Origin: a virus
Virus record (IMG/VR): IMGVR_UViG_3300018429_000008
Coordinates: 1-40,701 of that record
Length of the DNA stretch: 40,701 bases
Strand: one strand, 5' to 3'
In this document: in pieces, positions 2,247-40,342 of the stretch
Position numbering within the stretch: position 1 is the stretch's first letter
Layout of the letters: every line of letters begins with the position of its first letter
Notes under the pieces: generated by a model
What the model was told of the DNA's origin: nothing
Seen by the model: the letters and a program-made list of their open reading frames with translations, nothing else
Databases searched by the model: none
Made by a program: the position numbers and the translations under genes

Positions 2247-3506
2247 GTGAGCTGGCGTGTCGAGCAGGCGGACTGCGTCGAGCAGATGCGGGCGATGGAC
2301 GTGGCGTCCGTCGATGCCGTCGTGTGCGACCCGCCCTACGGAATCCGGTTCATGGGGCAGGCGTGGGACGGTGCGGACATCGAGGCTGCTGCACGAGCAC
2401 GTGCCGGCCAGGACTTGAGCCTGACGGCGAACGAGGCTTTCCAGGCGTGGTGTAAGGAGTGGGCCGGGGAGGCGCTGCGCGTATTGAAGCCGGGCGGCCA
2501 CATGCTCGCCTTCGGCGGCACCCGCACCTATCATCGGCTCGCGGCGGGGATCGAGGATGCGGGGTTCGAGATTCGCGACTGCCTCGCTTGGCTATTCGGG
2601 AGCGGGTTCCCGAAGTCGCTGAACGTCGGCAAGGCAACCGACGCCGCTGAGTGGGACGGCTGGGGCACTGCGCTCAAGCCAGCGCATGAGCCGATCGTCG
2701 TAGCCCGTAAGCCCCTCGTCGGCACGGTCGCGGCGAACGTGTTGGAGCACGGCACCGGCGGACTGAACATCGACGGGTGCCGGATCGACACGGTCAGCGA
2801 TGGGCCGGGCTCGACGCCGCCCACGGCGAAGGGCAGCGGTCGGACGATGGAGGGCGGCGAGATCGTCCGCGAGCCCTACGACGGGTCGCGGGGCCGTTGG
2901 CCAGCAAACGTCGTCCTCGACGAGGCAGCGGCGGCAACGCTCGACGAGCAGTCGGGTGAGCTCGTCAGCGGCAAGTCGGACGGCTTCTCCGGCGAGCACC
3001 GCGCCGAGGTCTATGGCCGCTACGCCCGCAACGAGCTCCGGCAGAGTCGATCTACGGCGAATCGCGGTGGCGCGTCTCGCTTCTTCTACCGCGCGAAGGT
3101 GTCGAGGGCGGAGCGCAACGTGGGGCTTGAGGGCTTCGACGCGAAGGCGCTGAACTGGTCGGCTGGCGATCAGTCGCCCGGCACGTTTCAAAGCGACGGG
3201 ACTGACAAGACCGCTCGTAACTCGCATCCGACGGTCAAGCCGATCGCGCTCATGCGCTGGCTGGTCCGGCTGATCACCCCGCCCGGCGCGGTTGTCCTTG
3301 ATCCGTTTACGGGGTCCGGCACGTCGGGCTGCGCCGCGGTGCTCGAGGGTGTCGACTTCGTTGGCATCGAGCGCGAGGCCGAGTACGTCGCGATCGCGCA
3401 GGCGCGGATCGCGCACGTCGAGAAGCACAGCGAGGACTACCTAGCGCCGGCTCCGAAGCCGGCTGAGCAGATCGCGGGCCAGCTCGGATTCGAGGATGCG
3501 GCATGA
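2247..3506 (+). CDS. DNA methyltransferase, beta class (N4-C or N6-A)
   Basis: 419 aa. It transfers a methyl group from S-adenosylmethionine to an amino group of A or C in DNA. The catalytic motif DPPY lies at residues 28-31, and the AdoMet-binding motif (DPFTGSGT, residues 352-359) lies near the C terminus. This order is typical of beta-class enzymes. The long middle part is a probable target-recognition region. Start GTG is supported by AGGAG at 2235-2239, 7 nt upstream. No restriction endonuclease lies beside it, so it probably protects phage DNA from host restriction or marks it for regulation. The target sequence is unknown. Confidence 0.88.
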   Translation: MSWRVEQADCVEQMRAMDVASVDAVVCDPPYGIRFMGQAWDGADIEAAARARAGQDLSLTANEAFQAWCKEWAGEALRVLKPGGHMLAFGGTRTYHRLAAGIEDAGFEIRDCLAWLFGSGFPKSLNVGKATDAAEWDGWGTALKPAHEPIVVARKPLVGTVAANVLEHGTGGLNIDGCRIDTVSDGPGSTPPTAKGSGRTMEGGEIVREPYDGSRGRWPANVVLDEAAAATLDEQSGELVSGKSDGFSGEHRAEVYGRYARNELRQSRSTANRGGASRFFYRAKVSRAERNVGLEGFDAKALNWSAGDQSPGTFQSDGTDKTARNSHPTVKPIALMRWLVRLITPPGAVVLDPFTGSGTSGCAAVLEGVDFVGIEREAEYVAIAQARIAHVEKHSEDYLAPAPKPAEQIAGQLGFEDAA

Positions 3507-18237: not shown

Positions 18238-18313
18238 CCCCTGGTAGCTCAGTCTGGACGAGAGCGCCCGCCTCCTAAGCGGGATGTCCTCGGTTCGCAT
18301 CCGGGCCAGGGCA
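18238..18313 (+). tRNA. tRNA-Arg (anticodon CCT)
   Basis: Decodes AGG. D arm GCTC...GAGC, anticodon arm CCCGC-CTCCTAA-GCGGG, T arm CTCGG-TTCGCAT-CCGGG. In the acceptor stem, CCCCTGG pairs with CCAGGGC except for C1-C72. A G just before position 1 (18237) would pair with C72 if one C were absent, so the gene has one extra or altered base. The T loop is TTCGCAT rather than TTCGAAT. CCA is not encoded. Function is probable but slightly impaired processing is possible. Confidence 0.8.
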
Positions 18314-18412: not shown

Positions 18413-18485
18413 GCCGGGCTAGCTCAACTGGTAGAGCGCCTGCCTCGTAAGCAGGGGGTTCGAGGTTCGAGTCCTCGGCTCGGCT
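18413..18485 (+). tRNA. tRNA-Thr (anticodon CGT)
   Basis: Decodes ACG. Full cloverleaf: acceptor GCCGGGC/GCTCGGC (one G-T pair), D arm GCTC/GAGC, anticodon arm CCTGC-CTCGTAA-GCAGG, T arm CGAGG-TTCGAGT-CCTCG, discriminator T; CCA not encoded. It lies 99 bp after the tRNA-Arg gene. Phage tRNAs often supply codons used more by the phage than by the host. Confidence 0.92.
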
Positions 18486-25673: not shown

Positions 25674-26633
25674 GTGTCGACGTTCCTCAAGGCAGAGAAG
25701 ATCGTCGCCCAGGGACTCGGGTTGCTTCAGCGCGAGCTGATCCTCCCGCGTCTCACCGTCCGCTACGGCGCGGCCGACTTCGTGGGCGCCAAGAACGACA
25801 CCGTCAACATCCGCATCCCCTCGATCCTGAAGGGACGCGAGTACGAGTGGCGTACCCGCAACACCTCGATCACGACCGATGATCTCGACGAGTACACCGT
25901 CGCGATCGCGCTGAACAAGCACCCGTACAACGCGGTCAGGATTACCGACGAGGAGTTGACCCTCGACATCCAGTCGTGGGGCGAGCAGGTCGCCCGTCCG
26001 CAGATCCGTGCGGTCGCCGAGCTGCTCGAGGGCTACATCGCAACGGCGATGGAGGACGCGAACTACCGCCACGATGTGCCGTTCGTCGAGGGCGACGGCG
26101 GCGCGGACGACCGGGCGTTCTACCAGGCGGCAATCGCCGCCCGGAAGCACCTCAACCAGGAGAACGTCCCGGCCGCGGGTCGCAAGATCGTTCTCGGCGC
26201 CAACGTCGAGGAGGCGGCGCTCAACTCGCCGCACCTCATCAAGGCGAACGAGGCCGACAGCGACGACGTACTCCGCAACGCGGTCATCGGCCGTATCGCC
26301 GGGTTCGAAGTGATCGGCAACGTGAATTCCGTCGATCCCGACTTCGCGGTCGCGATGCACCCGACGGCGTTCGCGTTCGGCAACGTCGCCCCGAAGGTGC
26401 CGGACGGCGTGTCGGCCGGCGCGACCCTGACGTTCGACTCCCTGGCCATGCGCTGGATCAGGGACTACGAGTCGGAGAAGCTCCGCGATCGGTCGGTCTA
26501 CTCGGCATTCGCCGGGGCGGCGTCGGTCGAGGACGGCCGCGACCTGACCTCCGAGGTCGGCGACGGCTTCGGCGAGCTGACGGACGAGAACGTCCGCGCG
26601 GTGAAGATCGACTTCACCCCGGCGGGCAGCTAG
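25674..26633 (+). CDS. Major capsid protein (P22 gp5-like, HK97 fold)
   Basis: 319 aa, GTG start with AGGAGGT at 25661-25667. The opening LKAEKIVAQGLGLLQRELILPRLTVRYG and VNIRIPS segment fit the P22-type coat group. No protease cleavage delta domain is obvious, in keeping with a separate scaffold. It builds the head shell. Confidence 0.88.
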   Translation: MSTFLKAEKIVAQGLGLLQRELILPRLTVRYGAADFVGAKNDTVNIRIPSILKGREYEWRTRNTSITTDDLDEYTVAIALNKHPYNAVRITDEELTLDIQSWGEQVARPQIRAVAELLEGYIATAMEDANYRHDVPFVEGDGGADDRAFYQAAIAARKHLNQENVPAAGRKIVLGANVEEAALNSPHLIKANEADSDDVLRNAVIGRIAGFEVIGNVNSVDPDFAVAMHPTAFAFGNVAPKVPDGVSAGATLTFDSLAMRWIRDYESEKLRDRSVYSAFAGAASVEDGRDLTSEVGDGFGELTDENVRAVKIDFTPAGS

Positions 26634-26704: not shown

Positions 26705-27157
26705 ATGGCCTTCGCCACCATCGAAGACTTCGAGGCCCCTCACGGGGCGCTCGGTGACACCGACAAGGGTGTCGTCGAGGCACGGCTTGACGACGCCTCC
26801 ACGCTCATCCTGAGCGAGGCCGCCGAGTCCACAAAGGAGTGGGTTACCGGCGGCGACGATCCGCCAGCGGCGGTCAAGCTGGTCTGTATCCAGGTCGCCT
26901 ACCGCGCCTGGCGCAACCCCGACGGGATCGCCCGCCAACAGCTCGGCGAGCACGCGGTCACCTACCGCGGCGACGACCAGCCCGACGCGATCTACCTCAC
27001 CCGCAACGAGCGTCGGATCATCCGCAGGGCCGCCCGGGCCGCCAGCGAGCCCCGCCTGACATCCATCGGGCTCGTCTCGCCACACCCCTTCAGCAACGGG
27101 ACCGAGATCAGCCCGCTCGACTTCTACCCGGACGGACTCGACGGCGAGGGGTCGTGA
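26705..27157 (+). CDS. Head-tail connector (Gp19/Gp15-like)
   Basis: 150 aa. N-terminal helix bundle (FATIEDFEAPHGALGDTDKGVV...LILSEAAESTKEWV), then a segment AVKLVCIQVAYRAWRNPDGI, typical for the adaptor that binds under the portal. Starts 18 bp after the hairpin. Overlaps the following glycosyltransferase gene (GTGA). Confidence 0.75.
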   Translation: MAFATIEDFEAPHGALGDTDKGVVEARLDDASTLILSEAAESTKEWVTGGDDPPAAVKLVCIQVAYRAWRNPDGIARQQLGEHAVTYRGDDQPDAIYLTRNERRIIRRAARAASEPRLTSIGLVSPHPFSNGTEISPLDFYPDGLDGEGS

Positions 27158-27816
27158 CGGTCCCGCGTGTTGTGCATCGCCTCTGGCTCGGTGGGCTGGA
27201 GCCGGAGTGGTGCCAGCCGTTCGCCGACACCTGGCGCCAGCCGGGCTGGGAGCTGCGGCAGTGGACCGACGACAACGTCGGCGAGTTGTTCCCGCTCGTC
27301 AACCAGGACGTCTACGACCGCGCTGAGCAGATCGCGCCCGACCATGTCGGGCAGCTCCGTTCAGACGTGCTGCGCTACGAGATCCTGCACCGCCACGGGG
27401 GCGTGTGGGTCGATACCGACTTTGAGTGCCTCAAGCCGATCGACGGTCTGCTCGAAGGGGTTGAGTGCTTCGCCGCGTGGGAAGAGCCGCGTCGGTGGAT
27501 CGCCAACGGGTTCATGGGTGCCGTGCCCGGCCACCCGTTCCTCGAGCGGCTGATCGACGATCTGGCGGCGAACGTCGAACGCCACCAGGGATTCAAGCCG
27601 AACAAGCTCACCGGCCCGCAGTTTTTCACCCGCCAATGGCTACAGCACGGCCGCGGGGTGACCATCCTCGACCGCGACCTCGTCTACCCGTTCGGGTGGC
27701 GGGAGGCGGGCGACTTCACACCCGGCACGTTTGACCCCGCCGAGCGGTGGCCGGACGCGCTGGCAGTGCATTGGTGGGCCAACAAGCGCAGAGAGCGAGG
27801 CATCCCGTGCAGTTGA
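27154..27816 (+). CDS. Glycosyltransferase, GT32/OCH1-like
   Basis: 220 aa, GTG start. IPxxxHRLWLG at the N terminus, SDVLRYEILHRHGGVWVDTDFECLKP with the DxD metal/nucleotide-sugar site, and a late NGFMGAVPGHPF are hallmarks of the Gly_transf_sug/GT32 group. Transfers a sugar from an NDP-sugar, probably onto a phage structural protein. First of three sugar-modification genes placed between head genes, coupled by overlaps. Confidence 0.85.
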   Translation: MTVPRVVHRLWLGGLEPEWCQPFADTWRQPGWELRQWTDDNVGELFPLVNQDVYDRAEQIAPDHVGQLRSDVLRYEILHRHGGVWVDTDFECLKPIDGLLEGVECFAAWEEPRRWIANGFMGAVPGHPFLERLIDDLAANVERHQGFKPNKLTGPQFFTRQWLQHGRGVTILDRDLVYPFGWREAGDFTPGTFDPAERWPDALAVHWWANKRRERGIPCS

Positions 27817-28427
27817 CGATCGAGGCGCACGACGCCAGCTACAAGATCAACGACCCCGGCGGCATCATCGGGAACTGCCTAAACGCAGGCAGCCCCTACG
27901 AGCGCAAGGTGCTCGAGCGGATCTACCGGGCCGGCCTTACCGGTACGGCCATCGACGCGGGTGCCGGCATCGGCAACCACACCCTGTGGCTTGCCGCCGT
28001 CTGCGGACTGCGAGTGATCGCTGTCGAGCCGCTCGACCACCTTCGCCTTGCCGAGAACGTCGCGCTGAACCCCGACCTCGACATCGAGGTGTGGCCTTGG
28101 GCGCTCGGCGATCGGCTCTACACCGGCCACGTCACAGGCGCCCCCGCGCACGTCATCGGCGACAGCTTCCCCGAAGACGGGGTTCGCATCCGCCGCCTCG
28201 ACGACGCGGCCGTAGAGAACGTGTCGTTGCTCAAAATCGACGTGGAGGGAATGGAAGCGGAAGTGCTCCGCGGTGGGCTGGAGACGATCCGGCGCGACCG
28301 GCCGCTCATCTTCGCCGAGGCGATCGACAGCGCCGCCCGCGAGTCCGTCGCGGCCATCCTTGAGCCGCTCGGCTACCAACACGTCAAGACCTACGGCGCC
28401 ACGCCCCTCCTGGAGTGGCTGCCGTGA
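27807..28427 (+). CDS. FkbM-family methyltransferase
   Basis: 206 aa, GTG start. AIDAGAGIGNHTLWLA is the AdoMet-binding loop; VIAVEPLDHLRLAENVALNP and LLKIDVEGMEAEVLRGG are characteristic FkbM motifs. Family members methylate hydroxyls of sugars or polyketides. Between two glycosyltransferases, it probably caps the added sugar as a methyl ether. Overlaps both neighbours. Confidence 0.88.
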   Translation: MQLTIEAHDASYKINDPGGIIGNCLNAGSPYERKVLERIYRAGLTGTAIDAGAGIGNHTLWLAAVCGLRVIAVEPLDHLRLAENVALNPDLDIEVWPWALGDRLYTGHVTGAPAHVIGDSFPEDGVRIRRLDDAAVENVSLLKIDVEGMEAEVLRGGLETIRRDRPLIFAEAIDSAARESVAAILEPLGYQHVKTYGATPLLEWLP

Positions 28428-29227
28428 CCCGCCTGTCCGTCGCGCTCATGTGCCACCCGAGCCGCAAACGGTTCGTCGACGAACTCGCCGAGCAGCTACC
28501 CGAAGCTGAGATCGTCTGGGACGAGCGCAACGACCGCTGGCACACAGGGTCGCGCGCGCTGCTCGCCCACGACCCATCGGCCGACTTTCATCTCGTCGTC
28601 CAAGACGACGTGATCCTCGGCCGCAACCTTGTCGCCGGAGCCACCGCGGCGGCCGCCGCCACAGACGGCAAGCGACCCATCGCCCTCTATACCGGCAAGG
28701 TCCGGCCGAAGAGCGAGCTCGTAACGCCGCTCATAGAGCGCGCCCAGAGGATCGGCTCCCCTTGGCTAGAGATGCCCGGCCCGTGGTGGGGGCCAGGGCT
28801 CATCATCCCGACCGCCCACATCGTCGACATCGTCGAGTGGTGGGAGCGACAGACGCTGAAGGTCCAGCGAAGCGTGAAGAACTACGACCGCCGCATCGAA
28901 ACGTTCTACACGTTCGAGCGCGACGGAATGGACTGCTGGTACACGCTGCCGTCGCTAGTCGAGCATCGCGGCGTCGACAAAAACCCGTCGCTGGTCGAAG
29001 GCCGCACCGGCAATCGGCATGCGCACACCTTTATCGGCGACGCCGACCCGTGCGCGATCGACTGGACGCGACGACCTGTGCGCTTGGACGACCCCATCGT
29101 CTACCACCATCGCAACACCGGCCGTGTCCGCACGGTCAAAGCCGGCTCCGCCCAGGCCCGGCAGATGCACCGTCACCGCAACTGGATCGAGGAGGCACCC
29201 GATGCCGACATTCCGCTCGCCGCGTAA
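28424..29227 (+). CDS. Glycosyltransferase-like protein
   Basis: 267 aa from GTG 28424 (GTGA overlap). The opening VALMCHPSRKRFVDELAEQL, then HLVVQDDVILGRNLV with an acidic pair, is like nucleotide-sugar transferases of the GT25/GT2 type. A later part has GPWWGPGLIIPTAHI and an acceptor-like region. Third member of the glycan cassette. The acceptor may be the capsid, a head decoration or tail protein. Confidence 0.7.
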   Translation: MTRLSVALMCHPSRKRFVDELAEQLPEAEIVWDERNDRWHTGSRALLAHDPSADFHLVVQDDVILGRNLVAGATAAAAATDGKRPIALYTGKVRPKSELVTPLIERAQRIGSPWLEMPGPWWGPGLIIPTAHIVDIVEWWERQTLKVQRSVKNYDRRIETFYTFERDGMDCWYTLPSLVEHRGVDKNPSLVEGRTGNRHAHTFIGDADPCAIDWTRRPVRLDDPIVYHHRNTGRVRTVKAGSAQARQMHRHRNWIEEAPDADIPLAA

Positions 29228-29722: not shown

Positions 29723-30106
29723 GTGACCGCCGCCCGCCTCATCAATCAGCCTTGCGTACTGCTACTCCGCACGGCCGGCGGCGAGGACGCACACGGCAAC
29801 CCGACAGCGGGCGAGCCGAAGCGAGTCGACTGGTACTGCGAGCTACAGCAGCTCAAGCGTTCCGAGCCGGCCGCCGAGGGCGAGACCTCGGACACCGTCT
29901 GGGACCTGTTCCTCCGCCCGGAGATCGTTGATGAGCCCGACGAGCCCGTCGAGGTAGGGACCGGAGACGCCATCGAGATCACCGGCCGGGTCTACGAGTT
30001 CACCGGAGACCCCTGGGATGTCCGCAGCCCGTTTAACGGGCGCGTATCCCACATCGAGGCGACCGTCCGCCGCGTCAACGGGGCGGTAAGGGAGGCGGGT
30101 TCCTGA
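29723..30106 (+). CDS. Head-tail adaptor / stopper
   Basis: 127 aa, GTG start. Beta-barrel pattern (CVLLLRTAGGEDAHGNPTAG...DAIEITGRVYEFTGDPWDVRSPFNGR) matches phage head-tail joining proteins. Position and size agree. Overlap of one base with the next gene. Confidence 0.7.
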   Translation: MTAARLINQPCVLLLRTAGGEDAHGNPTAGEPKRVDWYCELQQLKRSEPAAEGETSDTVWDLFLRPEIVDEPDEPVEVGTGDAIEITGRVYEFTGDPWDVRSPFNGRVSHIEATVRRVNGAVREAGS

Positions 30107-30498
30107 TGGTGCCCGACGCCGAGTCCGTGATCGTCGCCTACCTGCGCGACGAAGCATTCCGGGCGAGCACCGCTACCCCCGACGATCGCGAAGACCCGTG
30201 GGTTCGCGTGACGCTACTCGACGACCCACCGACCGACGGAGGGGTCACCGACCACCACATCGAGGCGTTCCTCCAGATCGATTGCTACGCCGGCACCGCC
30301 GAGAACTCGTCCGTCGTCGCGAGCGGCCTGTCGATTGACGTACGGGAGGCGCTACGCACGATGAAAAACGCCGTGCTCGACGACGCGGTAGTGACAGGCG
30401 CCCGTTCCTCGCGCGCGCACATCCCCGACACCGCCATTGGCGAGGCCGCCCTCGAGCGCTACATCATCTCCGCGACGGTGTGGATGCGCGGCAAGTGA
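30106..30498 (+). CDS. Tail terminator / completion protein
   Basis: 130 aa, ATG in a TGATG overlap. The alternation of strands and VIVAYLRDEAFRA ... IEAFLQIDCYAG...VREALRTMKN resembles tail-terminator proteins that cap the tail tube and join it to the head. Assigned mainly by position, so its place could be exchanged with the next gene. Confidence 0.6.
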   Translation: MVPDAESVIVAYLRDEAFRASTATPDDREDPWVRVTLLDDPPTDGGVTDHHIEAFLQIDCYAGTAENSSVVASGLSIDVREALRTMKNAVLDDAVVTGARSSRAHIPDTAIGEAALERYIISATVWMRGK

Positions 30499-30912: not shown

Positions 30913-31485
30913 ATGGCTCAGAACGCCAGTGAGTTGCAGTACGCCACCGATGGCGACATCCTGGTCGCCCCCTACGGCACCGCTCTGCCTGAGACCATCT
31001 CGGACGAGCTCGATCCCGCATTCGTCAACCTCGGCTACGCGACCACCGATGGTGTCACCGAGAACACCGGGCAGGAGGTCACCGAGACCGACGCGTGGCA
31101 GTCCCCGACACCCATCGACCGAAAGGTACTCAAGCGCCTCAAGGGTATCGCGGCCACCCTGCTCCAAACCAACCGCGAGAACTACAAGATCGCGTTCGGC
31201 GGAGGCGAGTGGGCCGAGACCGCCCCGGGCGAGTACGAGTACACACCGCCGGCCGACACGGCTGGGCTCCCCGAGTACGTGGTGATCGTCGAGGTCCGCG
31301 ACGAGGACATCCACGACCGGATCATCCTCAAGCGCGCCACGATGGGCGAGGAGATCGAGGTCCAGCGCGTCCGCGACAAGGCGGCCCAGTACCCGCTGAA
31401 GTTCGACGCCCTGACCCCGGACGGGGAGAGCACCGCGTGGGGCTTCCAGTCCGACAACCCGGCGTTCGCTGAGGCGGGCTCCTAA
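30913..31485 (+). CDS. Major tail tube protein
   Basis: 190 aa, ATG with AGGAGG at 30899-30904. Forms the stacked hexamers of the tail tube. Sequence has beta-rich segments and ends IHDRIILKRATMGEEIEVQRVRDKA...FDALTPDG, characteristic of siphophage tail tubes. Its stop overlaps the next start by one base. Confidence 0.85.
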   Translation: MAQNASELQYATDGDILVAPYGTALPETISDELDPAFVNLGYATTDGVTENTGQEVTETDAWQSPTPIDRKVLKRLKGIAATLLQTNRENYKIAFGGGEWAETAPGEYEYTPPADTAGLPEYVVIVEVRDEDIHDRIILKRATMGEEIEVQRVRDKAAQYPLKFDALTPDGESTAWGFQSDNPAFAEAGS

Positions 31486-31835
31486 TGGCCGCGACCACCA
31501 CGACCCGGAAGGCGGCCCCGAAGAAGGGGGCCGCCGCACGGGCCGCGACGACAGAGCAAAAGGTCGCCACCAAGAAGATCAAGGCGGCCGGCCTCACGTT
31601 CACCATCCCCGCCGAGATGCCGGGCATCCTGCTCCTGCACTTCGGCGACATGGAGGGCGGCAAGATGATCTCGCCCGTCCAAGATGTCCTCAAGGACACG
31701 CTCGGCGAGAACCAGTACGCCGGCCTGGTCGCCTCGATCCGCGAGCAAAAGCTCAACGGCCAGCAGGTCGGTGACCTCCTCGGGTCGCTGACCGAGCAGA
31801 TCACCGAGGCGTACGGGCTGACTGAGGGGGAATAG
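31485..31835 (+). CDS. Tail assembly chaperone (gpG-like)
   Basis: 116 aa. Basic Ala/Lys/Thr-rich start (ATTTTRKAAPKKGAAARAATT), then the helical chaperone part. It ends at TAG 31833-31835, right after the slippery run GGGGGAA (31826-31832). The short form binds the tape measure during tail assembly. Confidence 0.85.
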   Translation: MAATTTTRKAAPKKGAAARAATTEQKVATKKIKAAGLTFTIPAEMPGILLLHFGDMEGGKMISPVQDVLKDTLGENQYAGLVASIREQKLNGQQVGDLLGSLTEQITEAYGLTEGE

Positions 31836-32243: not shown

Positions 32244-35200
32244 ATGGCAGCAGGAACGAAGGTCGGGACGGGATACGTCGCGATCGAGCCGGACTTTTCC
32301 GGCTTCCAAGAGGAGATCGAGCGTGCTCTACGCCGCCGGTTCTCGAAAGTCGGCGACGACGCTGGCCGGGACTTCTCGGCAGGCATCACCCGTCGTTTGC
32401 GCAACCAGCGGGACGGGTTCGGCCTCGGCGCCGTGCTCGCCCCGCTGGTCAAGCGCTTCGAGAAGGCCGGCGACCAGGCCGGCAAGGTTCTCGCCGACAG
32501 GATCGGCAAGGGCGCTGGACGCGCGAAGGGCGACACCTTCGGCCTCGCCGCCGCGATAGCCCAGGTCGAGAAGAACTCGACTGCCGCTGCCCGAAACCTC
32601 CAGGGCCTCGAGCGCGACATGTTCGGCATCGGCCGAGCGGCGAAAACGTCCGGCCGGAACCTAATCAGCGCGCGCACCTCGCTAGGCGCATGGCACACCG
32701 AGGCAGGGACCGGCTCTCGCGTCACCCGCACCTTGGCTGGCCGCCTTGGCGGCCTGAGCTCGCGGCTGCGAGAGGTCACGTCAGGCGCTCGTTCAGCGGC
32801 TGGCGGCTTCGGCGGCATGAACGGAGCGATGGCGCGCGTCAACCGCGGCGCCCAGTTCTTCCGCAACATCACCCGCCTGCTCCGCTTCCCGGCGCTAATC
32901 ACCGGGCTCGGGCTTCTCACCCAAGGCCTAGCTGCGCTCGCCGCCGGATTCGTGGCCGCCGGCTCGTCGATCGGCACACTCGCCGGCGGGCTCGTAGCAC
33001 TCCCCGCCCTCGCGGCCACCGCCGCCCAGGCATTCGGCGCGCTAAAGCTCGCCACCGCCGGAATCGGCGACACCATCAAGGCCGCCCTCGACGCCCAGGT
33101 CAAAGGCGGCTCGCAGGCCGTCGACACGATGGGCCAGCAGCGCGCAGCAGCGGACCGCGTCGCAGACGCCGAGTTCTCGCTTGCCGACGCTCAGCGCCAA
33201 ACGAAGATCACTCAGGACGATCTCACCGCCGCGCGGAAAGACGCGCGTCGAGAGCTAGAGGACATGGCCCTCGCCGCTGAGCGCACGGGCTCGGTTGAGG
33301 AAGAGGGAGCGCTGCGACTCCGTCAGCTCCGCGAGCAGCTTCTCGAGACGGCGCTCGACCCCGACTCGACCGAGCTCGACATCCGGCTCGACGAGAACGC
33401 GCTCAAGCAGGCGCAACTCGACCTCAAACAGACCCGCATCGAGGCCAAGCGCACCCGCGCCGACTACAAGGACGCCGCCGACGAAGGCGTCAAGGGAATG
33501 CCAGCGATCGTCGCGGCCCGTCGCGCCGAGGCCGACGCATCGCGTGCAGAGACCGCCGCCCAACGCGACCTACAGCGCGCCGTGGAGGCCAGCACCGAGC
33601 AGATGGGCGCCCAGGGCGCCGCCGCCGACAAGCTCGCCGAAGAGATGGGCCAGCTCCCACCGGCCGCCCAGGCATTCGTCCGCCAGATCATCTCCCTCAA
33701 GCCGAAACTCGACCAGCTCCGCGCAACCGCCGCATCAGGCCTGTTCCCCGGCGTCTCCCAAGGCCTACGCAGCGTCATGGGCAACTTCGGGGTCGTCAAC
33801 CGCATCGTCGGGCAGACCTCCACCGCTTTCGGGGGGCTAGCCGCCAAGGCTGGCGAAGCGCTCGGCGGCAAGGAGTGGGGCCGAGACCTCCAGCTCATCG
33901 GCCGCCAGAACGTCCGAACGATCAACCAGATGGGCGCCGCCGGCGGCAACCTCGCCGACACCTTCCGGCACCTTCTCGTCGCCGCCCGGCCGTTCGTGAA
34001 CTGGCTCGGCAAGGGCACCGTCGCCCTCACCGGATGGATCAAGACAGAGGCGAAGGCCGGACGTGAATCGGGCCGCCTCGCCGCGTTCTTCGACCGCACC
34101 AAGCAGACCATGCAGCTCCTCGGCCCGATCCTCAAAGGGGTCGGCGGCGCGTTCCTCAACATCGGGAAGGCCGCACGGCCGCTCGGCAACGAGATCCTCG
34201 GTGCCCTCGGGCGCGCAGCAGAAGGATGGCGCAAGTGGACCGGCTCCGTTCAGGGACAAAACAGCCTCCGCAAATACTTCGCCGACGCCAAGCCCGCCAT
34301 CTTCGAGATGGGCCGCCTCCTCCGAGACGTAACGAAGGCGTTCTTCGAAATCGGCAACCAGCCCGGCGCCGCGCCACTCATCAAACAGGTGCGGACCCAG
34401 CTCCTCCCGGCACTAACCGATGTCGTGCGCACCCTCACCGGCGCGCTCGGGCAGGCGCTCGTCTCGACGTTCACCAGCGTCGTCAAGCTGGTTGAGCAGC
34501 TCTCCAAGGTCAACGGGCCGCTCGTCACCATCGTCAAGGGCGTAGGTGCTCTCGCCGCCGGGCTCGCGTTCGCCATCGACAAGATCCCAGGCGTCGACAT
34601 TCTCGTCTCAGGAATCCTCGGTGCCGTCGTAGCCATCAAGGCATGGACAGTCGCGCAACGACTGCTGAACGTCGCGATGTCCCTGAACCCGATCGGGGCC
34701 GTGGTCGTTGCCCTCGCCGGGCTCGGGTTCGCGCTCTACACCGCATGGACGAAATCCGAGACGTTCCGCAAAATCGTCACCGGCGCTTTCGACGCCGTCG
34801 TGTCCGCCGGCAAGTTCCTCGCCGACAAGTACCTCGGCTACATCACCACCATCCTCGGTGGGTTCTCCTCCCTCGTCTCGGCGGGCTCCAAGTTGCCGTT
34901 CGTCGGCGGCAAATTCAAGGGGCTCGCCGGAGCGATCGACAGCGCCCGCGACGAGATAGACGGCTTCCGCGAAAGCCTGCGTGGCGGCAACCGCGACGCT
35001 TCCAGGACCGCCGGGCTGAAGGCCCAGCAGACCGAAGTCGACCGGCTCAAGAACAAGCTAGGCGGATTGAAGAAGGGCACCCGCGAGTACAAGGAGACCG
35101 CGGAGAGGCTCCGCGCGAAGTCAGTTGAGCTGAAGAAGGCGCTTGAGGACATCAAGCCCGCTGCCGGCAAGGCCGGAAGCGGCATCAACACCCTCAAGGG

Positions 35201-38200
35201 CAATGTTGGGAACCTCGGCGGCGGGATGGGCACCGTCGCCGAGTACACCCAGAGCGAGCTCAACAAGATCCTGCGCGAGTTCGGCGCCAAGCCGATCAAG
35301 CACAAGGCAAAGCCGTTCCCGAAGCTCGTGCCCCTGCAGCAGTTGAAACGGCAGCGTGGTGGCCCGATCAACGTTGGTGCTCCGTCAGGGGATTCGGTCC
35401 CGGCACTGCTTGAGCGCGACGAGTACGTGCTCAATCGCAAGGCCGTGAAGACGGTCGGTCGCGCGACGCTCGATGCAATCAACTTCGGCATGGCGCCGCG
35501 CTTCCAGAAGGGCGGCGCAGTCGGCGACATCGGCGGACTCTCGCCCGGCGCGTTGAAGCTCGCGGCCATTCTCGGCAACCGCTACGGCCAGACCGTCAGC
35601 TCCGGCCGACGCGCCGGCGACACCGACAGCATCCACTCCACCGGCAACGCAATCGACACAACGGGCGGCGACTGGCGCGGAGCGGCCCGCTACGTCAACA
35701 GCATCGGCCCGTCGCTACTCGAGGGGATCTACAACCCGGCGGTCTTCGGCGGCCCGCCCGTGTCATGGGATAGCGGCCAGCAGGTTCCCCACGGCTTCTG
35801 GGATGCCGACTGGGGCAGGCACATGGACCACATCCACTCTGCGGTCGGCGCTTCCTTTAAGGCTGTCGCGACGCAGATCAAGCGGCTACTCATCACCGGC
35901 GGCACCAAGACGACCAACGCCGCGTTGCAGGGCGCGTCGGACCGGCTCATCAAGGGCGCGAACCAGTACATCGAGTCCGTCATGCCGCGCGTGTCGCACA
36001 GCAACCTCGGCCCGACGATGTCCGGCGACGGCGATGTCGAAGCGACCTTCGCAAAGATCGCCAAACGGCTCTCCAAGTCAAAGATCGCCACGCTCGCGCT
36101 CGGCATGGCCGGCTACGCAGAGTCCGGTATGGAGGATCTCTACTACGGCGACCGTGATTCTCAGGGCGCCCTGCAGGTTCGGGCGGGCGTCCATCCGGGC
36201 GTTGACCCGCACAACGAGGGGCAGATCGCTTCGCTGTTCCTCAACTCCGGCTTCACCGGGCGCGGTGGCGCGAACGTGCTCGCTGCGCAGGGCCTCCCCG
36301 CGCACCTCGTCGCCCAAGCCGTACAGGGTTCCTTCGACCCGACCGGGTCGAACTACCTCCGTCAAGAGGGTGCCGCGCGCGCCTGGATGAAGCGGTTTGG
36401 CCTCAAGAAGGGCGGCCTCGTCGGAATGGTCGGCGACAGCCTTGGCGTCGGGACTGCGCCACCGCTCCGTGAGCGGCTCAAGACGCTAGGCCTGGGGCTC
36501 AGGGCCAACGTGCAGGGCAGCCGACCGTCCACAGGGGCTGCGGGGATGTTCAACGCGCTCGGACTCGGGAAGGCCGCCCAGTACGTGTTCGACCTCGGCA
36601 CCAACGACACATCCGTGTCCGCGCTCAAGGCGAACCTCGCAGCGGTCGACCGCACGACCGGCGACTCGCCGCTGCACGCCCTCACCGTCCTCGGCGACCA
36701 TGCCCGCGAGAAGAACGCGGCGCTGCGCTCCGTCGCCGGAGCGAACATCATTGACTGGGCCAAGATCGCCGGGTCCTACGTCGCCTCCGACCCGATGGGG
36801 CTGCACCCGACCGGCGCCGGTTACAGTAAGCGTGCCGAGCTACTCAAGAAGGCCATCAAGGCCGCTGCCCCCAAGAAGCCCGCGAAGCCGGGGGGCTCCA
36901 CCGTCAAGGGCGGCATAGGGAGCCCGCTCGGCGAGATCGACGTGTCGCTCGCGTCCGGCCGCTGGAACCTTCCGCAAGCGATCCACAAGTCGCTACAGCG
37001 GACCCGTCGTCCCCAGTCGAAGAAGGGCACACGTCGGAAGCAGATCGCGGGTCTCGTCAAGCGTCTGAAGGATCAGTACTCGCTTGATGGCTGGGCCGGC
37101 GAGGGCCTGCCCGGCTTGGCCGGTCGGATAGCGGGCTTCGATGGCGACGACGAGTACCTAGCCGATCAGATTTCGCGCGCGGACTCCCAAACGTTCGACG
37201 TGCTCGACGCCGACGACGAGCCGGTCCTTGACCCGGACGGCCGCCAGGTGGTCTCGCTCGGCAGGATGGACGGCAAGACCGCCGGCCAGTGGGCGAGCGA
37301 CCGCCTGCAGTTCCTGCTTGAGCGGCGCAACGACTTCATCGAGGCGCGCGCTCGCGTCACGGAGATGCTCGCGGACATCACGAAGCGCCTCGAAGCGATG
37401 CGCGAACGTGCCGCATTCCTGAAGGAGCGGATCGCGCAGCAGATGGACGTCCGCCTTGGGCTCGGCGACCTAGTCGACGCAAAGCGGCGTCCGAACAAGC
37501 TGAAAGCCAAAATCGAGCGCCTGGCGGCGGACCTCGCGCCGAAGCTGAACAAGTTCTTCCCCAAGAACCTTTGGTCGAAGAAGGTCACTGCGAAGCTGCT
37601 GCGCGAGGAGCCGCTTGGGCGGTCGCGCGACCGAATCGGTGCGGCCCTTGGTGCCCGAAACGCGAACCTCCGCGAGCGGAATGCGATCGTCAGGCAGATC
37701 ATCCCGACCCTCACCGACCGGCATGAGCTGCTAACCGGCGACCAGGAGACCTATCTGGGTGCGCTGACCGGCCTACAGGGGCGCGGGCGCGGCGACACCC
37801 GCGGCGACAAGTTCTCGGGCACACCGGTCTTCGGCCAGTTCTCGGGATCGATCTTCGACGCTCATCAGCAGCTCAACGAGATGAACACCCCGCCGCCGAT
37901 CATCAAGCGCGATAAGGGCGAGGCCGACAACAGCCGCAACCTCGACCGCGAACTGTTCAACCAGCAGTACGGCATCAAGGCGCTCGAGGAACTACAGAAG
38001 CGGATCAGCGAGGGAGCCACCAGGCTCGTCCCGTTCGGCGGCGTGTTCCACGAGGGCGGCAAGATCCCCGGCCCGGTCGGCCAAGAGCGAATGATCCTCG
38101 CCCAGTCCGGCGAGGGCGTCATCCCCCTCGACAAGATGCACGACCTACGCGCTCCCAGCAGGGACGGAATGACCATCCAACTGATAGTGGAGGACGGAGC

Positions 38201-38309
38201 CGTGGACGAAAGCAAGATCAAGGCCATCGCCCGCGACCAGGCCGGCCGCGAGTATCAGGTTCAGACCAAGCGAGAGCGCAGCGTGATGCGGATGGGGGCA
38301 AGGCCGTGA
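32244..38309 (+). CDS. Tape measure protein with three enzyme-like domains
   Basis: 2021 aa; sets tail length and enters the cell wall at infection. Typical TMP start (VAIEPDFSGFQEEIERALRR), hydrophobic regions at about 215-282 and 782-835, and coiled coil at 302-452. At about 1100-1210 an M15-like peptidase signature: H1131-STGNAI-D1138 and H1193, H1196, H1198. At about 1265-1385 a lytic-transglycosylase/lysozyme-like domain (GMAGYAESGM, candidate E1293; GDRDSQGALQV). At about 1392-1535 an SGNH hydrolase: GDSLG (S1399), LGTND (N1454), DPMGLHPTG (D1516, H1521). The C-terminal part is helical and basic. Enzyme domains may open peptidoglycan and remove acyl groups; activity is inferred. Confidence 0.88.
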   Translation: MAAGTKVGTGYVAIEPDFSGFQEEIERALRRRFSKVGDDAGRDFSAGITRRLRNQRDGFGLGAVLAPLVKRFEKAGDQAGKVLADRIGKGAGRAKGDTFGLAAAIAQVEKNSTAAARNLQGLERDMFGIGRAAKTSGRNLISARTSLGAWHTEAGTGSRVTRTLAGRLGGLSSRLREVTSGARSAAGGFGGMNGAMARVNRGAQFFRNITRLLRFPALITGLGLLTQGLAALAAGFVAAGSSIGTLAGGLVALPALAATAAQAFGALKLATAGIGDTIKAALDAQVKGGSQAVDTMGQQRAAADRVADAEFSLADAQRQTKITQDDLTAARKDARRELEDMALAAERTGSVEEEGALRLRQLREQLLETALDPDSTELDIRLDENALKQAQLDLKQTRIEAKRTRADYKDAADEGVKGMPAIVAARRAEADASRAETAAQRDLQRAVEASTEQMGAQGAAADKLAEEMGQLPPAAQAFVRQIISLKPKLDQLRATAASGLFPGVSQGLRSVMGNFGVVNRIVGQTSTAFGGLAAKAGEALGGKEWGRDLQLIGRQNVRTINQMGAAGGNLADTFRHLLVAARPFVNWLGKGTVALTGWIKTEAKAGRESGRLAAFFDRTKQTMQLLGPILKGVGGAFLNIGKAARPLGNEILGALGRAAEGWRKWTGSVQGQNSLRKYFADAKPAIFEMGRLLRDVTKAFFEIGNQPGAAPLIKQVRTQLLPALTDVVRTLTGALGQALVSTFTSVVKLVEQLSKVNGPLVTIVKGVGALAAGLAFAIDKIPGVDILVSGILGAVVAIKAWTVAQRLLNVAMSLNPIGAVVVALAGLGFALYTAWTKSETFRKIVTGAFDAVVSAGKFLADKYLGYITTILGGFSSLVSAGSKLPFVGGKFKGLAGAIDSARDEIDGFRESLRGGNRDASRTAGLKAQQTEVDRLKNKLGGLKKGTREYKETAERLRAKSVELKKALEDIKPAAGKAGSGINTLKGNVGNLGGGMGTVAEYTQSELNKILREFGAKPIKHKAKPFPKLVPLQQLKRQRGGPINVGAPSGDSVPALLERDEYVLNRKAVKTVGRATLDAINFGMAPRFQKGGAVGDIGGLSPGALKLAAILGNRYGQTVSSGRRAGDTDSIHSTGNAIDTTGGDWRGAARYVNSIGPSLLEGIYNPAVFGGPPVSWDSGQQVPHGFWDADWGRHMDHIHSAVGASFKAVATQIKRLLITGGTKTTNAALQGASDRLIKGANQYIESVMPRVSHSNLGPTMSGDGDVEATFAKIAKRLSKSKIATLALGMAGYAESGMEDLYYGDRDSQGALQVRAGVHPGVDPHNEGQIASLFLNSGFTGRGGANVLAAQGLPAHLVAQAVQGSFDPTGSNYLRQEGAARAWMKRFGLKKGGLVGMVGDSLGVGTAPPLRERLKTLGLGLRANVQGSRPSTGAAGMFNALGLGKAAQYVFDLGTNDTSVSALKANLAAVDRTTGDSPLHALTVLGDHAREKNAALRSVAGANIIDWAKIAGSYVASDPMGLHPTGAGYSKRAELLKKAIKAAAPKKPAKPGGSTVKGGIGSPLGEIDVSLASGRWNLPQAIHKSLQRTRRPQSKKGTRRKQIAGLVKRLKDQYSLDGWAGEGLPGLAGRIAGFDGDDEYLADQISRADSQTFDVLDADDEPVLDPDGRQVVSLGRMDGKTAGQWASDRLQFLLERRNDFIEARARVTEMLADITKRLEAMRERAAFLKERIAQQMDVRLGLGDLVDAKRRPNKLKAKIERLAADLAPKLNKFFPKNLWSKKVTAKLLREEPLGRSRDRIGAALGARNANLRERNAIVRQIIPTLTDRHELLTGDQETYLGALTGLQGRGRGDTRGDKFSGTPVFGQFSGSIFDAHQQLNEMNTPPPIIKRDKGEADNSRNLDRELFNQQYGIKALEELQKRISEGATRLVPFGGVFHEGGKIPGPVGQERMILAQSGEGVIPLDKMHDLRAPSRDGMTIQLIVEDGAVDESKIKAIARDQAGREYQVQTKRERSVMRMGARP

Positions 38310-39796: not shown

Positions 39797-40342
39797 CTAC
39801 GCCCGGCTGCTGCGGATCAAGCGACAGATTGATCGCATCTGTCGCCGAGTGGGTTCAAAGGCGTAGCCAACGGCGTAACGCCTAGCGAGTTCCCCGCCGA
39901 GCGCACACTTGGCGTATGCCTCAGCGAACTGCTCGTGAGGGCTGTTCGGTGAAGTTCGCCACGGGCGAGCGTCTCGCATAATCAGCAGAAAGCGCTGTCG
40001 ATCGGCATCCGAAAGACGGGTGTAGTCGAGCTGGTGACCAAGCTCGTGCAGGAACTCGCCCTGCACCCTCGCCGACGCCTTGTTTGGGTCGCCGTACCAG
40101 GCGCGGTTAAAGTGGATCGGGCCGCCGGGCCAGGTACAAGCCGGCTCCTCGCGGCCAGGGCAGGCCGTCTCGGAGATAGTCAGTAACGCGAGGCGCGGCA
40201 TGTGTACCCACGCCGCCTCAACCCACCGCTGGTAGGGCTGTGCGACTTGACCGTCAGGCGTGACGAGAGTGACCGCCTGAGCTTCCCCCGCCGCTCCCAG
40301 CATCACCGCTAGTACGGCTACTGCGAACCCTCTCCTCAACAC
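39797..40342 (-). CDS. Secreted metallopeptidase-like protein
   Basis: 181 aa. Start read as GTG at 40342; no good ribosome site is seen, so the exact start is uncertain. A signal peptide is evident (LRRGFAVAVLAVMLGAAGEAQA). The zinc motif H99-E-L-G-H103, followed by LDY, and a later EQFAEAYA helix (candidate third ligand in 137-141) make a complete zincin site. Two cysteine pairs may form disulfides. It is the only reverse gene behind the tail genes, so it is likely a lysogeny 'moron' that is expressed from the prophage and changes the host surface. A structural or regulatory role is not excluded. Confidence 0.72.
   Translation of the reverse strand: MLRRGFAVAVLAVMLGAAGEAQAVTLVTPDGQVAQPYQRWVEAAWVHMPRLALLTISETACPGREEPACTWPGGPIHFNRAWYGDPNKASARVQGEFLHELGHQLDYTRLSDADRQRFLLIMRDARPWRTSPNSPHEQFAEAYAKCALGGELARRYAVGYAFEPTRRQMRSICRLIRSSRA
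39821..39845. terminator. Hairpin at tail/metallopeptidase junction
   Basis: GCGACAGAT (39821-39829), 7-nt loop, ATCTGTCGC (39837-39845): perfect 9-bp stem, 30 bp after the tail gene stop and inside the 3' end of the reverse gene. Probably terminates from both sides. No T-tract. Confidence 0.45.

Follow-up and report, generated by a model that had tools for sequence, protein, structure and literature searches.

We found that the tape measure protein of an uncultivated virus carries, as read from its uninterrupted gene, three putative wall-active modules in series: a LAS-type zinc peptidase, then a domain resembling lysozymes and transglycosylases, and last an OatA-like SGNH domain, which has its active-site blocks present. 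On balance we favor the view that this tape measure is a wall entry kit in which the SGNH domain would strip O-acetyl groups from muramic acid, after which the adjoining cutter would act. The stretch of DNA analyzed (the window) is the full 40,701 bases of a linear virus record, possibly a fragment. The original prediction of three wall-active modules in one tape measure was borne out by profiles, a model of the SGNH domain and leave-one-out controls, and its coordinates and residue numbers proved exact (H1131, E1293, S1399 with GDSLG starting at 1397, and GTND at 1452-1455).

The protein was identified as a tape measure by its length, the tail-assembly genes upstream and tape-measure profile matches. 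Residues 5-858 matched PHROG tape-measure families (best 6.5e-79), other stretches were matched too, and phages of Gordonia, Mycobacterium and Rhodococcus gave distant matches to the tape-measure body. Upstream lie the genes for terminase and portal, followed by those for the tail terminator and a tail assembly chaperone. GC content by codon position within the cassette (residues 1098-1540) was 0.66/0.52/0.87, a strong third-position bias. Pfam yielded no significant match for any of the three cassette modules, and residues 1545-2021 gave no confident Pfam or PHROG match. The features are as follows:

30106-30498: tail terminator, upstream of the tape measure gene
31485-31835: tail assembly chaperone, upstream of the tape measure gene
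32244..38309, plus strand: tape measure protein gene, 2021 aa, uninterrupted open reading frame with PHROG profile matches
35535..35867, plus strand: module 1, residues 1098-1208, LAS/M15-type zinc peptidase (leave-one-out profile E 4e-18)
36051..36398, plus strand: module 2, about residues 1270-1385, lysozyme/lytic-transglycosylase-like (PHROG endolysin family 6.7e-9)
36423..36863, plus strand: module 3, residues 1394-1540, OatA-like SGNH domain (profile, model, Foldseek)
36438..36440, plus strand: codon of Ser1399, Block I nucleophile (GDSLG), invariant in 7/7 relatives
36603..36605, plus strand: codon of Asn1454, Block III oxyanion residue (GTND), invariant in 7/7 relatives
36789..36806, plus strand: Block V, D1516-P-M-G-L-H1521, a two-residue insertion relative to D-x2-H
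36876..38306, plus strand: C-terminal part of the tape measure, residues 1545-2021, downstream of the cassette

Several other genes of the window were recorded. Two glycosyltransferase-like genes (26839-27816 and 28415-29227, plus strand; Gly_transf_sug 1.9e-8, PHROG glucosyltransferase 3.5e-20) sit between the tail genes and the gene for a P22-like coat protein (25674-26633) and possibly serve virion glycosylation. On the strand opposite the tail genes, 39797-40342 (minus) encodes a small protein that begins like a signal peptide and contains a HELGH zinc-metallopeptidase-like motif; Pfam gave no match for it. A DNA methylase gene (2247-3506, plus strand; N6_N4_Mtase 3.5e-31) and two phage tRNA genes, Arg(CCT) and Thr(CGT) (18238-18313 and 18413-18485, plus strand), were also found.

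Leave-one-out profiles were built from relatives without the window, with E values scaled to 1e6 sequences. In case of the first module, the LAS/M15 profile matched residues 1103-1201 with an E value of 4e-18 and 71 bits, compared with at most 9.7 bits for 1000 shuffles of the region. All seven phage peptidase proteins share the motifs S-x-H-xx-G-x-A-x-D and H-xx-H-I-H, with S1129, H1131, G1134, A1136, D1138, H1193, H1196 and H1198 invariant, and the zinc-ligand motifs H-x6-D and H-x-H were kept in all seven rows. By analogy with the LAS superfamily, H1131, D1138 and H1198 are likely zinc ligands, while D1195 or H1193/H1196 are likely catalytic. Further, the family profile matched the Hedgehog N-product (2e-6); Hedgehog and M15 peptidases form one zinc-binding group, LAS. 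The module has the S-x-H-xx-G-x-A-x-D and H-x-H motifs in common with phage LAS/M15 peptidases and differs from them in the residue ahead of HIH, a position where the window has Asp and some relatives have Asn.

The second module matched a PHROG endolysin family (6.7e-9) and a PHROG tape-measure family (2.4e-4) and was 39.6% identical to an Arthrobacter phage endolysin over 89 aa. E1293, G1302, D1303, S1306, G1308 and Q1311 (GDxxSxGxxQ) were invariant in the three rows compared, and E1293 is likely the acid residue of the predicted glycan cutter. A search of the module profile against solved structures returned no significant match. Lysozyme or lytic transglycosylase is a moderately supported candidate identity for this module, the least secure of the three.

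Structure prediction, originally proposed as a check on the cassette, succeeded for the SGNH domain (pLDDT 82, pTM 0.80), whereas the joint model of the peptidase and the middle module was poor (pLDDT 45). Using the SGNH model, Foldseek placed the catalytic domain of S. aureus OatA on top (6vjp, E 2e-6, TM 0.77), with further matches to sialate O-acetylesterases and acylhydrolases. Independently of this fold search, the SGNH alignment profile ranked OatA (6wn9, 3e-12) first among solved structures. The leave-one-out SGNH profile matched residues 1395-1539 (E 2e-30 scaled to 1e6 sequences, 111 bits), compared with at most 8.0 bits for 1000 shuffles of the region. The predicted model is a 147-residue alpha/beta domain without insertion, and its fold, together with Blocks I, III and V containing S1399, N1454, D1516 and H1521, places it in the SGNH superfamily. 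In Block II, Ser1426 precedes the invariant Arg, and a Gly-to-Ser change in this block has been published for OatA homologues (PMC6174289). As for the motifs named in the original prediction, GDSLG and GTND are present but D..H is not: four residues rather than two separate D1516 from H1521, which puts the Block V Asp five residues ahead of the His instead of three. The Asp itself is kept, and the D-x4-H spacing is common to three tape measures (window, L020 and L023), while L021, L022 and secreted host relatives have D-x2-H. This departure from the standard spacing counts against the predicted esterase reading.

When the window SGNH domain was used as a single-sequence query, nothing was found in phages, viral contigs or genomes, and degenerate motif scans and alignments were therefore needed. 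A collection of 2.9 million viral contigs was scanned with SGNH motifs only, ignoring neighboring domains. Among 17 first pattern matches, two (L006 and L014) truly had an SGNH domain, the other 15 being rejected as chance or low-complexity frames. Apart from the window, the motif scans found four close SGNH proteins (L020-L023), three of them tape measures, where L021 was classed as such by its length and by matches to the window tape measure outside the cassette. In all five close viral copies (window included), each found by SGNH motifs only, the SGNH domain adjoins a cutting domain, and four of the five are on tape measures representing at least two backbones. The window, L021 and L023 share the order LAS peptidase, cutter, SGNH. 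L020, with a different backbone (PhageMin_Tail 3.9e-44), has an NlpC/P60-like domain followed by a transglycosylase and the SGNH domain. The fifth copy is a 566-residue protein (L022:8056-9756) which is not a tape measure and shows the reversed order of SGNH, cutter and peptidase, the latter two assigned largely by eye from their motifs and the peptidase by a weak profile match. It had no PHROG or Pfam match and is a candidate virion-associated lysin.

Other tape measures carry the peptidase and no SGNH domain (L068, L071, L072 and also L002; the L068 peptidase is 61% identical to that of the window over the matched stretch), which makes the SGNH domain an optional module. Two Firmicutes-like phage tail proteins (L066:2618-7996 and L067:9341-12622) each contain a glucosaminidase recognized by Pfam (1e-35 and 2e-34) together with a remote SGNH domain, and may be a parallel example of joining a cutter to a deacetylase. 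A late motif scan found one free-standing SGNH protein (L088), and the C-terminal alignment was too variable for use as a scan query. The SGNH domain had originally been called unusual in a tape measure. This fits described phages, as three queries against 50,697 records found nothing at E 0.01, but among uncultivated viruses the domain recurs. A match in Lactococcus (E 0.2) was discarded as a chance hit, and the remote query L067 gave matches in Listeria that lie in records without annotation.

To locate the origin of the module, bacterial and archaeal genomes were also covered. A motif scan of 84,980 species genomes gave only two confirmed relatives, both from Solirubrobacterales MAGs, and a profile search within this order gave matches in 65 of 201 genomes. 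The stronger matches are mostly free-standing proteins, many of which start with a hydrophobic stretch resembling a signal peptide. The weaker ones fall in frames of about 650-750 residues; four of these were read from end to end, and all four are AT3-SGNH proteins. The secreted proteins are about 30-40% identical to the phage domain and have the same blocks but are free-standing and show D-x2-H. In the tree, the five phage SGNH domains form one clade (99/98) inside the free-standing secreted group, with deeper branching uncertain and the window copy on a long branch. Further, the window portal is 58% identical to a Solirubrobacterales portal from a prophage region (L079, genome G084). Sampling the phylum gave at best 50% across the full length, or 54% across a fragment. 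The prophage shares this portal and one neighboring gene with the window, but a counterpart of the window's tape measure was not found in it; one of its tail proteins has LT-like and NlpC/P60-like stretches. Based on the SGNH relatives and the portal identity, the host probably belongs to Solirubrobacterales or a nearby group, and the module probably derives from a secreted SGNH protein of that host group.

Some host SGNH relatives adjoin AT3-SGNH or MBOAT O-acyltransferases. This neighborhood is at most suggestive, four of these loci having been picked because two matches lay close together. One Solirubrobacterales locus (L084:3695-6755, minus strand) encodes an MBOAT acyltransferase, a DUF459 protein and an SGNH protein in a row, with a second, divergent SGNH gene, and looks like a polymer O-acylation cluster.

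For the cassette we infer catalysis, substrate, order of action and host. Once the tail opens, the tape measure would exit the tail tube and its modules would act locally on peptidoglycan. The peptidase would cut stem peptides or cross-bridges, and the SGNH domain, as a serine esterase (S1399 and H1521, with D1516), would take the O-acetyl group off C-6 of MurNAc, making the glycan cleavable by the adjoining cutter. This reading draws on the properties of such cutters: lytic transglycosylases depend on MurNAc having its C-6 hydroxyl free and are blocked by O-acetylation, which also hinders lysozymes (PMC1199599; PMC6174289). Help with DNA injection by a tape-measure hydrolase has been described for TM4 (PMC1796659). 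As OatA is a transferase, fold likeness alone does not indicate an esterase. O-acetyl removal is the best-supported hypothesis because OatA is nearest by both fold and sequence, a cutter always adjoins and O-acyltransferases are neighbors of some host relatives; the original suggestion that the domain might assist DNA entry by deacylating O-acetylated peptidoglycan stands as the leading prediction.

A less probable reading, which we nevertheless take seriously, is an active esterase for another acylated envelope polymer in the tail's path, such as a secondary wall polysaccharide, a teichoic-type polymer or capsule. SGNH esterases have many substrates, the fold matches include both sialate O-acetylesterases and acylhydrolases, and host relatives near acyltransferases could serve any acylated polymer. 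However, the domain always adjoins peptidoglycan-cutting domains and is not found in a tail fiber or spike, and the first rank of OatA by fold and profile also argues for peptidoglycan. It seems unlikely that the domain has lost catalysis and now binds the wall or plays a structural role in the tape measure. The changed distance between Asp and His in three tape measures and the long branch of the window copy would fit this reading. Against it, none of the five phage copies has lost Ser, Asn, Asp or His, although the remainder is only 36-41% identical to the window. Addition of acetyl groups by an OatA-like acetyltransferase, for example limiting damage after entry or hindering other phages, is improbable: OatA is indeed the nearest structure, but in vitro its domains also hydrolyze activated esters (PMC6174289), and searches of the SGNH-bearing tape measure revealed no AT3, other acyltransferase or acetyl-donating membrane domain. 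We give similarly little credence to a virion-borne acetyl editor, in which phages of a little-studied actinobacterial order would use the OatA-related enzyme to strip and possibly later restore peptidoglycan acetyl groups at the entry hole, switching the cutter on and off. LysB-style hydrolysis of mycolyl or arabinogalactan esters, the other substrates originally suggested, has a negligible chance of being correct and was rejected on host and fold evidence, as only the distant phage matches to the tape-measure body given above favor it, whereas the SGNH relatives and the portal point to Solirubrobacterales, an order not known to make mycolic acids, and no LysB-like fold or family match was listed for the tape measure or its SGNH domain.

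The proposed de-O-acetylating cassette can be compared with several known systems. Its SGNH domain shares with the C-terminal domain of OatA (6vjp, 6wn9, 5ufy) the fold and the best profile match, and also the GDS and GTN blocks and the Gly/Ser variation before Arg in Block II (PMC6174289). It differs in its fusion to a tape measure, the missing AT3 membrane domain and the D-x4-H spacing, and unlike OatA it is probably hydrolytic. Ape1-type O-acetylpeptidoglycan esterases belong to the same superfamily and carry out the reaction which is only proposed here, but Ape has an inserted beta-sandwich, a putative carbohydrate-binding domain (PMC6174289), whereas the phage module is a single domain. 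Wall-cutting domains inside a tape measure are shared with TM4 motif 3 (PMC1796659) and enterococcal TMP-LT (PMC10194240), which have a single cutting domain each, compared with two cutters plus SGNH here; in the enterococcal survey, LT was the sole lysin type in tape measures (PMC10194240). A literature search, largely without subscription journals, found no report of an SGNH module in a tape measure and no paper on tape measures of Solirubrobacterales phages. Each part of the cassette is known, their combination in a tape measure is one for which we found no published report, and the protein falls among the tape-measure lysins.

In conclusion, many phages enter with lytic transglycosylases or lysozymes, the very enzymes that peptidoglycan O-acetylation blocks or hinders. 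If the proposed function is true, fusing a deacetylase-like module next to the cutter would counter this block directly, and an SGNH-bearing tape measure may mark phages of Solirubrobacterales.
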